Shown: positions 30,863 through 56,005 of the stretch, one piece after another | Position numbering within the stretch: the first letter of the stretch is position 1 | How the letters are laid out: every line of letters starts with the position of its first letter | DNA from: Bacteroidales bacterium | Lineage (GTDB): Bacteria; Bacteroidota; Bacteroidia; Bacteroidales; UBA932 | DNA length: 64,000 nt | Direction of reading: 5' to 3' | Assembly (NCBI GenBank): GCA_017446775.1 | Contig: JAFSQE010000017.1 | Span: 1 to 64,000, forward strand | Position numbers and translations under genes: made by a program | The notes under the pieces: model-generated | Told to the model about the DNA's origin: nothing | Databases searched by the model: none | What the model saw: only the letters and a program-made list of their open reading frames with translations

Positions 30863-30870
30863 TACATTTG
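30863..30870 (+). promoter_or_regulatory. -7 box TACATTTG of the nfnA transcription unit
   Basis: A perfect TAnnTTTG match, placed so that the transcript would begin about 10 bp before the conserved leader element; no clear -33 box is seen. Confidence 0.5.
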
Positions 30871-30885
30871 CCGCATTGATGATTA

Positions 30886-31037
30886 TTAAAGCCCGGAGGG
30901 CGTAGGTAAGTCCCTCCCCCGAGGGGAGGGATTTAGGGTGGGGGATACGTAATAATGTAATGTGCTTAGGGAAAAAGTTTCGCAAGTTAACCTAAAGCAC
31001 ATTTTAGAAGGTTATTGGAACTTGCGAAACTTGAGCA
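30886..31037 (+). promoter_or_regulatory. Structured leader element, copy 1 (before nfnA)
   Basis: About 152 bp, alignable end to end with 55795-55948 (minus strand, before fadD). It has a GCCC-GGA-GGGC hairpin, then a 9-bp stem (30911-30919 with 30923-30931, loop CGA). Two crossed pairings follow: a (30959-30970) with a' (30991-31003), and b (30975-30988) with b' (31019-31032, perfect 14 bp). Arm b' ends 5 nt before the ATG. Compared with copy 2, one base pair in the CGA stem changes C-G to T-A and one in a/a' changes T-A to G-C, as expected of a conserved RNA fold. It might instead be a mobile palindromic repeat. Confidence 0.7.
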
Positions 31038-31883
31038 ATGTACAAGATCCTGGATAAAAAAATGCTCGCTCCTCAGATCTTTCTGATGGAGATCGAGGCC
31101 CCGAGACTGGCCGCGGCTGCCCTGCCGGGCCAGTTCCTTATTATCCGCGACGATGAGAAAGGGGAGCGCATACCACTCACCGTGAGCGACTCCGATGCCG
31201 AGAAAGGGACAGTGACGGTGGTTATCCAACTTATCGGCCGTTCCAGCCACAAGATGGTGGAACAATTCAATGTGGGAGACTCCTTTGCCGATGTGGTGGG
31301 ACCTTTGGGCAACCCGTCCGAGTTTGTGAACGCCGATGCTCAAGAGCTCAAGAATCGCCGCTATGTGTTCATTGCCGGCGGTCTGGGCACCGCCCCGGTT
31401 TATCCCCAGGCCCGCTGGCTGCACGAGCACGGCGTCCCGGTGGATGTAATAATAGGCGCCAGGACCAAGGATCTGCTGATATATACGGATAAACTCTCCG
31501 CCGCCTGCGACAATCTTTATCTCTGTACCGACGATGGCAGCGAGGGTTTCAAGGGGGTCGGCACTGCCTGCCTGGAAGATCTTTGCGCCAAAGGCAAGAG
31601 TTACACCAACTGTGTGGCCATAGGCCCTATGATAATGATGAAGTTCGCCACCCTCACCTGTATGAAACTGAATATCCCCATTCAGGTAAGTATGAACACA
31701 CTGATGGTGGACGGCACCGGAATGTGCGGTGCCTGCCGCGTGAGCGTTGGCGGAAAGACATATTTCTCTTGCGTGGACGGGCCTGAGTTCGACGGTGCCC
31801 TTGTGGACTGGGACGAAGCAATGCGCCGTTCGCGTCAGTATAAGCCGGAGGAGGCGGCGGCAATGGAAAGTTATGGCAAATAA
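31038..31883 (+). CDS. nfnA: NfnA/SudA-like FAD-NAD(P) subunit (dihydroorotate dehydrogenase electron-transfer type)
   Basis: The small subunit of NADH-dependent ferredoxin:NADP+ oxidoreductase (also described as sulfide dehydrogenase), which links reduced ferredoxin and NADH to NADPH formation. Its 281 residues give a ferredoxin-reductase-like FAD domain (LPGQFLIIRDDEKGERIPLTV), an NAD(P) domain (YVFIAGGLGTAPVYP) and a C-terminal [2Fe-2S] site with Cys in GMCGACRVSV and YFSCVDGPEF. The large subunit overlaps it by 11 nt, as expected for coupled subunits. The 5' leader holds the conserved RNA-like element. PyrK is a relative, but no pyrD lies nearby. Confidence 0.9.
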   Translation: MYKILDKKMLAPQIFLMEIEAPRLAAAALPGQFLIIRDDEKGERIPLTVSDSDAEKGTVTVVIQLIGRSSHKMVEQFNVGDSFADVVGPLGNPSEFVNADAQELKNRRYVFIAGGLGTAPVYPQARWLHEHGVPVDVIIGARTKDLLIYTDKLSAACDNLYLCTDDGSEGFKGVGTACLEDLCAKGKSYTNCVAIGPMIMMKFATLTCMKLNIPIQVSMNTLMVDGTGMCGACRVSVGGKTYFSCVDGPEFDGALVDWDEAMRRSRQYKPEEAAAMESYGK

Positions 31884-54141: not shown

Positions 54142-55794
54142 TTACGAATACAGGAACCTCTTGATACTCATCTTGGGAGTTTTCTCAAAGGGCTTCTGCT
54201 GGAGCTCTACCTTGGTGAGCTGGCTGTAGCCGGGCAGCAGGCGGTTTGCACCAACGCGGATGGCCTCTGCCATATCTGCCTGCTCTTCTCCGCTCTCGGG
54301 AAGGGTTGCCTGATCGGGATAAACCAACGCTACCAGCTTGCCGGCGCGGTCTACAACCACGCTCTCTGCAACGCCGTTCTGGTTGTTTACAATCGCCTCG
54401 ACCTCCTCCGGATAGATGTTCTGTCCGTTGGCAGAGAGTATAAGGCTCTTGCTGCGGCCGCGGATAAATACGTTGCCGTCGGCATCCATGGTGCCCAGGT
54501 CGCCGGTGCGCAGCCATCCGTCGTCTGTAAACAGGGTGGCGCTGGCCTCGTCGTTCTTATAATAGCCGATGCAGACGCTCTGGCCGCGGGCCTGGATCTC
54601 TCCGGCTACGTGCTCGGGGTCGTCGGAATCGATGCGGATTTCAACAATATCGATGGCACGTCCGCAGGAACCTGCAACATACCCGTCTGCAGCAGGGCGA
54701 TAGGCCAGCAGAGGGCAGGCCTCGGTCATGCCGTATCCCACGGTGTAGGGGAATTTGATCTTGCGGAACCACTTCTCCACCTCGGGGTTGAGGGCTGCAC
54801 CGCCCATGATGAATTCGGTGACATTGCCGCCAAAGGCGTTGTAGAGACCGTCCTTTATCTTCTTGAAGATTATCCGGCGGATACCGGGAAGGGCGGTAAG
54901 AACCTTCATTGCGGGCTTATCCACCACCGGTTTGATCTTGCTCTTGTAGATTTTCTCCATCACCAGCGGCACGGTTACCAGAAGGTGGGGCTTGTAATCT
55001 GCATAAGCCTTGAGCAGGACGGCCGGGGTAGGGGTCTTGCCCAGCCAGTACATGCTGCAGCCGTTGCATACCTGATACATGAACTCTATCATAAGGCCGT
55101 ACATGTGGGCCATGGGGAGCATGGTTACCATGTTGTGGTCCGGGGCGATGGGCATCCAGCGGTTGCAGAAGTCAATCATCGCGCTCATGTTGCGGCGGGT
55201 GAGCATGACGCCTTTGGGGTTGCCGGTAGAGCCGGAGGTGTAGTTGATGATGGCCAGCTCGTCCATGTTGTCGGTGGCGTAGTGCAGGTCGGCGGGGCCG
55301 AATCCTTCCGGATATTTGGCGGCGTATGCAGCCTCCATATCGTCGTACGCCTTCTTTGTGGCATCATCGGCCGCAAAGAGCAGATCCCAGTTCTCTACGT
55401 TTATCGCAAAGCGCAGGCGGGGCATCTTTGCTGCATCCATCCTGGCCCATTTGGCGCCGGTGGTAAACAGGCCGACGCTCTCTGAATGGTCTACAAGGTT
55501 GCAGACAGAATCGGGGGTAAAATCAAACAGGATTGGCACAGCCACGGCACCATAGGTATTAACTGCCAGGAACACCATACCCCAGCGGGCACAGTTGTGG
55601 GCGCAAATCGCCACCTTGTCGTCCTTGGGCCTGATGCCGGCGGCATCCATGAACAGGCTGAGTTTCTCTATACGGATGGCCATCTGGCCAAAGCTGTAAC
55701 TTTCGCCTCCAACGTCGTTGAGAGCTTTCTTGTCCCAGAATTTGCAGACATTCTCCTGCAAACTTGCAATGTAATGAGGGTATTCAGTTATCAT
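54142..55794 (-). CDS. fadD: Long-chain fatty acid:CoA ligase (AMP-forming)
   Basis: 550 residues of the ANL adenylating family: P-loop INYTSGSTGNPKGVML (about 183-198), the GYGMTEACPLL motif with the TE pair, the hinge region WLRTGDLGTMDADGNVFIRGR and the C-terminal Lys in FEKTPKMSIKRF. It activates fatty acids for lipid synthesis or exchange at the inner face of the membrane. Its mRNA has a leader of about 165 nt holding the same structured element as nfnA, which ends 7 nt before the ATG. The substrate chain length is inferred from the family only. Confidence 0.9.
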   Translation of the reverse strand: MITEYPHYIASLQENVCKFWDKKALNDVGGESYSFGQMAIRIEKLSLFMDAAGIRPKDDKVAICAHNCARWGMVFLAVNTYGAVAVPILFDFTPDSVCNLVDHSESVGLFTTGAKWARMDAAKMPRLRFAINVENWDLLFAADDATKKAYDDMEAAYAAKYPEGFGPADLHYATDNMDELAIINYTSGSTGNPKGVMLTRRNMSAMIDFCNRWMPIAPDHNMVTMLPMAHMYGLMIEFMYQVCNGCSMYWLGKTPTPAVLLKAYADYKPHLLVTVPLVMEKIYKSKIKPVVDKPAMKVLTALPGIRRIIFKKIKDGLYNAFGGNVTEFIMGGAALNPEVEKWFRKIKFPYTVGYGMTEACPLLAYRPAADGYVAGSCGRAIDIVEIRIDSDDPEHVAGEIQARGQSVCIGYYKNDEASATLFTDDGWLRTGDLGTMDADGNVFIRGRSKSLILSANGQNIYPEEVEAIVNNQNGVAESVVVDRAGKLVALVYPDQATLPESGEEQADMAEAIRVGANRLLPGYSQLTKVELQQKPFEKTPKMSIKRFLYS

Positions 55795-55948
55795 TCGCTC
55801 AAGTTTCGCAAGTTTTACTTTCTTGGTAATATGTACGTTAGAACAACTTGCTAAACTTTTTTCTGACGCACATTCTTTTATAACGTATCCCTATCCCTAA
55901 ATCCCTTCCCTCGGGGAAGGGACTTACCCTACGCCCTTCGGGCTTTAA
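55795..55948 (-). promoter_or_regulatory. Structured leader element, copy 2 (before fadD)
   Basis: Read on the minus strand: GCCC-GAA-GGGC hairpin; a 9-bp stem around CGA (55914-55922 with 55902-55910); arm a (55866-55874) with a' (55828-55839); arm b (55845-55858) with b' (55801-55814, one mismatch). It shares long identical blocks with 30886-31037. Differences in stems are compensated, while loops vary. Confidence 0.7.
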
Positions 55949-55973: not shown

Positions 55974-56005
55974 CAAAGATAGCAAATCAGCGGTATTTCT
56001 CCAAA
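55974..56005 (-). promoter_or_regulatory. Consensus promoter of fadD
   Basis: On the minus strand TTTG (56002-56005), 20-bp spacer, TATCTTTG (55974-55981). It lies partly inside the last codons of the upstream GH123-like gene, so fadD has its own promoter and a leader holding the structured element. Confidence 0.75.

Follow-up and report, generated by a model that had tools for sequence, protein, structure and literature searches.

The 64,000-nt stretch of Bacteroidales DNA analysed here (the window) carries two copies of a folded, multicopy element of ~150 nt, one in the leader of nfnA and one in that of fadD, and the element is probably a MITE/REP-like mobile leader that occurs before start codons, with two competing folds and no single shared metabolite sensed. 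Its parts are a small hairpin (P1), a BoxC/PIT-type hairpin with the potential to form a triplex, and an interlocking P3/P4 module. It presumably moves as DNA and would insert, or survive, directly before start codons, in the sense orientation and downstream of an existing promoter where one is seen, to become the 5′-leader of the gene. In the mRNA, P3, which leaves the start region free, may then compete with P4, in which pairing takes up the bases immediately before the AUG, and the leader could damp or switch translation of the host gene. A stronger form of this explanation, in which the element homes to translation starts in the sense orientation, including those of genes that overlap or adjoin their neighbours, and spreads two-fold leader control through core genes by transposition, is at present doubtful.

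Mobile repeats are commonly regarded as clutter between genes. If the explanation is correct, sense leaders come and go between sister species before the starts of core genes (polA, mutS, pyrB, recR and pheS among others), and such a family would be a natural experiment on the spread of leaders and of translational control. Bacteroidota are commonly described as initiating translation without strong Shine-Dalgarno pairing, and structure adjoining the AUG should therefore matter.

Architecture of the element and covariation of its stems

From 5′ to 3′, the element has TTAGAGCCCG with P1, then P2 (pyrimidine and purine arms joined by a short loop), TTT, a purine-rich third strand that mirrors the P2 purine arm, a ACGTTATAA-like spacer and finally four arms in the order a-b-a′-b′. 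Arms a and a′ form P3, arms b (~GTTTCGCAAG) and b′ (~CTTGCGAAAC) form the interlocking P4, and the start codon lies a few bases past b′ (Table 1). The sequence-only reading of the window had reported that ~152 bp before the nfnA ATG (31038) recur before the fadD ATG (55794), each time downstream of a TAnnTTTG element, and both the repeat and the two promoter elements were found where it placed them. The two compensatory changes that it named are also present, C-G to T-A in the CGA-loop stem and T-A to G-C in the a/a′ stem. The copies are 80% identical and, in both cases, none of 200 shuffled sequences folded with as low an energy as the native one (z of -4.38 for nfnA and -3.28 for fadD). In an Rfam scan of the window only three tRNAs reached the gathering level, with no other family doing so.

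Table 1. Coordinates of element copies and associated features; positions given without a locus are those of the window
Feature	Position	Strand	Basis or remark
Full element copy, nfnA leader (TTAAAGCCC ... CTTGAG)	30886..31035	+	sequence, genome search, covariance model; left edge set by comparing the flanks of 63 distinct copies
Full element copy, fadD leader	55798..55948	-	sequence, genome search, covariance model
TAnnTTTG-type promoter element TACATTTG of nfnA	30863..30870	+	sequence; also in 5/5 element-free orthologues examined
TAnnTTTG-type promoter element TATCTTTG of fadD	55974..55981	-	sequence; orthologue comparison
nfnA (name from the sequence-only reading; 281 aa, Pfam DHODB_Fe-S_bind)	31038..31883	+	frame and Pfam
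fadD (name from the sequence-only reading; 550 aa, Pfam AMP-binding)	54142..55794	-	frame and Pfam
P1 hairpin GCCC-GGA-GGGC, nfnA copy	30891..30901	+	sequence; covariation
P2 hairpin, nfnA copy (pyrimidine arm 30907-30919, purine arm 30923-30935)	30907..30935	+	pairing, covariation
Third strand AGGGTGGGGG, nfnA copy, mirrors P2 purine arm; purine-motif triplex potential	30935..30944	+	sequence, three-strand test
P3 5′ arm (a), nfnA copy, partner 30995-31003	30959..30967	+	pairing, covariation
P3 3′ arm (a′), nfnA copy	30995..31003	+	pairing, covariation
P4 5′ arm (b), nfnA copy, inside P3 loop	30975..30988	+	pairing, covariation
P4 3′ arm (b′), nfnA copy, 5 nt upstream of nfnA ATG	31019..31032	+	pairing, covariation, frame check
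P2 hairpin, fadD copy	55898..55926	-	pairing
P3 5′ arm, fadD copy, partner 55831-55841	55863..55873	-	sequence, fold
P3 3′ arm, fadD copy	55831..55841	-	sequence, fold
P4 5′ arm, fadD copy, 84% pairing with 55801-55819	55840..55858	-	pairing
P4 3′ arm, fadD copy, adjoins fadD ATG	55801..55819	-	pairing
Copies with extra hairpin (GGAGC..GCTCC or GAAGC..GCTTC, ending TAGCTTCGG)	L059:2966-3155
	L075:1844-2034	-
	L091:2986-3138
Copy after tRNA-like sequence, no frame directly downstream	L083:3015-3173		one orthologous site, two species
	L084:2956-3114	-	one orthologous site, two species

P1-P3 and P4 covary in an alignment of 36 full copies. In this alignment, which was made with MAFFT and not fitted to the structure, with the structure drawn from one of its rows and some rows being the same site in two species, paired cells amount to 87.9% (84.1% in shuffles), double changes occur in 20 of the 43 pairs (12.0 in shuffles) and the covariation score is 0.153 (0.097 in shuffles). 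None of 500 shuffles reached any of these three values and versions of the structure slid along the alignment as controls all scored lower. An excess of G-U pairs is absent from P4 (7 G-T and 9 A-C cells), and in P3 G-U does not exceed the column prediction (58 G-T cells seen, 70.8 expected), so that selection at the RNA level is not demonstrated. The earlier description of the leader as structured and covarying stands; the counts of G-U against A-C do not show the selection on RNA that it also proposed.

As P4 mostly has 10-14 bp and starts adjoining P3, a pseudoknot with both stems formed simultaneously looks strained in our judgement, which leads to the two-state reading. Calculated for the 44 full copies described below, the mean fold energies are close to each other, -15.0 kcal/mol with P3 and -17.5 kcal/mol with P4; P4 is the lower by >0.5 in 28 of these copies, and P3 in 11.

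Two variations of the architecture were also observed. Short hairpins of the form GTTTCGC..GCGAAAC or GCTTCGC..GCGAAGC lie directly upstream of P1, or replace it, in L004 (upstream of the holA copy), L078, L089, L092 and L094, and three copies, at three different genes, have an extra hairpin between the P2 purine arm and the third strand.

P2 and the third strand as a triplex-type hairpin

The G-rich hairpin of the element belongs to a widespread Bacteroidota repeat of the PIT/BoxC type, for which a purine-motif (class II) intrastrand triplex is predicted. An anchored pattern (AAGTCC, 6-30 bases, GGATTTAGG) is present in 81 of 296 genomes of the phylum and, as compared with a reversed-pattern control, has, for example, 32 versus 1 matches in genome G411, 21 versus 0 in G583 and 21 versus 0 in G418; the control also has some matches elsewhere, so single matches can be due to chance. 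At 69 loci, picked for diversity among the matches listed, 71 pattern places were read, of which 12 with stems of <6 bp were dropped, leaving 50 unique hairpins. Beyond the anchored AGG, the third strand obeys the purine-motif rule (G on G, A/T on A) at 269 of 297 positions in these 50 elements, several of which may come from one genome and are then not independent. With third strands shuffled among elements, the agreement was 52.9 ± 3.1%, with a maximum of 63.6% in 5000 shuffles. This three-strand covariation across the Bacteroidota argues that the third strand is under selection. As purine-motif triplexes are stated, in the text of PMC4666352, to be unable to form in RNA, this architecture indicates that the domain formed by P2 and the third strand most likely acts, or once acted, as DNA. 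At 20 of the phylum loci, a crude frame caller placed the nearest downstream frame in the sense orientation 8 times and in the antisense orientation 8 times, with no frame at the other 4, and this mixed orientation contrasts with that of the full element in the genus.

A G-quadruplex was considered for the third strand and rejected, as runs of three G are missing from L093 and L095 although both keep to the mirror rule (L095 as judged by eye); quadruplexes with two layers may nevertheless form. Inspection by eye of L149-L217 revealed that, where the pyrimidine arm has a run of T, the third strand often alternates A and T at the matching positions (AT for TT, ATA for TTT).

Flexibacter litoralis is a member of the Bacteroidota. 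This species is named for A/T-rich triplexes in the text of PMC4666352 (Holder et al. 2015), which credits the TMECO triplex motifs to Hoyne & Maher, reports the TMECO pattern in 262 proteobacterial genomes and describes the scanning of 5246 genomes and plasmids into a database. The main text of that article contains no word starting with 'Bacteroid'; triplex motifs from Bacteroidota may already be listed in the database. The exact TMECO pattern, CCCTCNCCC N3-6 GGGNGAGGG N3 GGGNGAGGG, is absent from the window and is matched in one of 218 sources (L170, Bacteroidota).

Position relative to genes and presence or absence at orthologous sites

A subset of the covariance-model matches in the genus, 73 places on 68 loci, was inspected for position. 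The P4 pair was detected by script in 44 of these places and not in 29, although four of the latter (L004, the second copy in L043, L091 and L092) do contain P4 when read by eye. The 44 full copies include eight sites seen in two species and so represent 36 distinct sites. A sense frame that starts with ATG is located 4-13 nt after b′ in 37 of the 44 full copies and at 31 of the 36 distinct sites. Seven full copies depart from this arrangement. In L047, the ATG is present and the frame runs off the contig, the mutS gene of L050 seems to start at GTG, and the frame in L063 starts 53 nt downstream. In the aroB orthologues of L078 and L082, the element is upstream of a promoter-like site, TATCTTTG in L078, and one orthologous site, seen in two species, has no frame directly downstream (Table 1). 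A second repeat fragment adjoins the full copy in L084. A sub-threshold match to twister-P3 in L047 lies outside the element and was taken as chance; neither L047 nor L052 has a convincing Rfam match.

The automatic ORF caller gave some false antisense frames, such as those opposite nfnA and purA, and the positions reported here rest on the ATG-frame check and on Pfam. The downstream protein belongs to a Pfam family for 39 of the 44 full copies (32 by its own scan, 7 through a close orthologue), and the scan returned no Pfam match for the downstream proteins of L055 and L056. There is a sense Pfam gene downstream of 24 of the 29 places without a script-detected P4 (18 by own scan, 6 through a close orthologue); L068, L071 and L079, 5′-half copies that may be antisense, have only frames without a Pfam match, and L073 and the second place in L084 have no frame. 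The genes downstream participate in DNA repair, tRNA charging and amino-acid, nucleotide, sugar and cell-wall metabolism, and include mutS, polA, uvrA, recR, holA, thyA, dut, purA, pyrB, carA, hisG, aroB, aroC, argG, glyA, murF, pheS, argS, galE and tpiA, several of these names being read from the Pfam family and the sequence. In the histidine-biosynthesis region of L041 (genome G007, contig C11), three copies are present, one each before hisG, before the GATase gene taken to be hisH and before a gene of the His_biosynth family.

Presence and absence were evaluated in 10 genomes for 15 genes chosen because they carry the element in at least one genome. Among the matches listed, the element is present in 1-3 of the 10 genomes for each gene and in 21 of the 150 gene-genome cells, with 12 cells scored as not found, one of these being murF in G006, whose row was left out; at nfnA it is present in G000 and G020, and at fadD in G000 only. 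Element-free orthologues were compared for 13 of the 15 genes. Species without the element have empty sites, and no start was found for ald in G010 and G017. At holA, carA, dut and mutS, the alignment of the left flank with the element-free orthologue that matches best ends 0-4 nt short of the start codon, and at mutS 45 of 45 flanking bases are identical. Some of the old upstream sequence is missing at nfnA (14-17 nt) and ald (34 nt), indicating that insertion was not clean everywhere; the flanks of fadD, galE, purA, polA, recR and glyA align too poorly for an edge to be placed, and pyrB was read by eye.

The nfnA promoter element TACATTTG is upstream in all five element-free orthologues, and TATCTTTG is upstream of fadD in two of four (G010 and G041), with no exact match in G021 and G008. 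Addition of the element thus gives the gene a new leader and leaves its promoter in place. This bears on the very improbable alternative of a mobile element that itself carries the promoter. Such a promoter would account for locations just upstream of genes and for the promoter-like sequence directly downstream of the element at aroB in L078, but TAnnTTTG is upstream of the element at nfnA and fadD and is present in element-free species, and several copies are located where the element-free genes, recR, carA and dut, overlap or touch the upstream gene.

P4 could be compared at 11 sites seen in two species. At two of these, nfnA and murF, there is a double change with pairing retained; six are unchanged, holA and galE have one-sided changes or none that matter, and at pheS one species is without two of the P4 pairs. 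Unless nfnA and murF acquired their copies independently in the two species, this suggests that P4 has been under selection since insertion.

Given that the genes are diverse and the distribution patchy, a sensor of a common metabolite is rejected. The sequence-only reading had proposed such a signal and a covariance-model search for it; the search did recover 5′-leaders with covarying stems, but the genes belong to mixed pathways rather than to a single metabolic group, and each of the 15 tested has the element in 1-3 of the 10 genomes, empty sites being seen in others. A true cis-regulatory RNA class, either a riboswitch for a single ligand or a leader bound by a single protein, that was recruited widely and often lost, is accordingly unlikely. 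It would explain the sense 5′-leader position, the covarying structure, the double changes at orthologous sites and the clustering of several copies in the his locus of a single genome (L041), and the strongly conserved b/b′ core would be a candidate binding site. It is difficult to reconcile with downstream genes that have no common pathway, with occurrence in so few of the genomes per gene, with a window in which nothing beyond tRNA reaches an Rfam gathering level, and with P2 and the third strand being a widespread repeat that is as often antisense as sense in the 20 phylum loci.

Distribution, mobility and relation to known systems

In its own genome, the element was found at 8 places by DNA search, with 5 matches reaching at least base 164 of the 176-base query and 3 stopping at or before base 96. 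The covariance model, built from the 36 full copies, matched 20 of 26 genomes in the genus, at 107 places with 0-14 copies per genome, and 8 of 295 genomes in the order, including its own; the matches in the other 7 are weak (31-45 bits) and, as read by eye, have P2 and the third strand in common. As far as searched, the element thus appears to be confined to one Bacteroidales genus of gut bacteria. Named records with the core pattern come from seven Bacteroidales metagenome-assembled genomes, with 20 stretches in all, and six of the seven are labelled as from the rumen, reticulum or omasum of sheep, goat, yak or water buffalo. Carriage by phages was also considered, but no matches to a 37-base P2 pattern, with one free base, were found in the viral_contigs set, a search that diverged copies would escape.

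A genome of the sister genus (G042) has 14 matching rows that correspond to 9 places of a related composite, five rows repeating a place on the opposite strand, and the P2 part is present at four of the 9. L278-L280 keep the a-b-a′-b′ order with a different b/b′ sequence, and the ends of this element have an inverted TAACGT..AGTTCGA repeat (both by eye). The L280 composite is 4 nt before an ATG, that of L278 is between convergent frames, and the remaining places include solo hairpins, as in L282, also between convergent frames. With placement mixed in the sister genus, the fixation on start codons is strongest in the genus of the window. Apart from the composite, L282-L284, L290 and L291 have short hairpins whose inverted repeats are long (TAACGTCAGTTCGACGAA.. 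and its variants), which hints at independent spread of the P4 module. Solo GTTTCGC hairpins were rejected as a source of P4, being present in just 3 of the 26 genomes with spacers of up to 30.

These relatives between convergent frames (the L278 composite and the solo hairpin of L282) are what would be expected of a passive dispersed repeat of the REP, BIME or MITE kind that has no function and is seen before starts only because other insertions are eliminated. The patchy distribution, the BoxC/PIT-like core and the shortened copies (the 29 of 73 places without a script-found P4, less the four with P4 by eye) fit with this. However, reverse or 3′ insertions should then survive too, and 37 of the 44 full copies lie in the sense orientation with an ATG 4-13 nt away; moreover, P4 pairing was kept through double changes between the copies that two species carry before an orthologous gene. 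A purely passive repeat is, on this balance, quite unlikely. The mobile palindromic repeat offered earlier as the alternative to a common signal does fit the data better than that signal, except that the orientation is not the random one by which the sequence-only reading would have recognised a dispersed repeat.

With respect to the preferred mobile leader, the element is multicopy, non-coding and present or absent at orthologous sites, as are MITEs. Whole-element terminal inverted repeats were not seen in the genus copies. At the left edge, 8 of 63 copies have an ATG at two offsets, where about 1.7 would be expected, an excess noticed post hoc, with 7 at two neighbouring offsets; there is no clear target duplication. 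Y1-transposase genes are present in 21 of the 26 genus genomes, including five without the element, and a P2-type hairpin flanks none of six Y1 loci examined in the genus, with the repeat within about 1.5 kb at just 2 of 30 examined in the phylum. Mobilisation by a RAYT is therefore not supported.

No published description of the element was found in the openly licensed literature. As in the structured RNA motifs of Bacteroidota in the article text of Weinberg et al. 2010 (PMC2864571), it is structured and was revealed by comparative genomics within the phylum, but nothing in the window except tRNAs matches Rfam at the gathering level. With the TnpAREP (RAYT) subclass 2.6 of Bacteroidetes, for which the text of PMC6006769 mentions 'atypical secondary structures', it shares the phylum and dispersed structured repeats, whereas the Y1 genes here are mostly unflanked (0 of 6 genus and 2 of 30 phylum loci). 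Like prokaryotic MITEs and REPs, as characterized in the texts of PMC10969869 and PMC3733652, it is short, non-coding, multicopy, structured and patchy between relatives; unlike them, it is mostly sense at start codons, and in the genus no whole-element terminal inverted repeats, no clear target duplication and, among Y1 transposases, no partner were seen. The closest parallels to its hairpin in the text of PMC4666352 are BoxC, PIT and TMECO, which also have a pyrimidine arm, a purine arm, a 3-nt loop and a third purine strand within one DNA strand, a class II purine motif and dispersed copies, some as inverted pairs. TMECO is described there as proteobacterial and as showing no preference for a particular distance from ORFs, whereas here the hairpin is one domain of a larger element that adjoins start codons.
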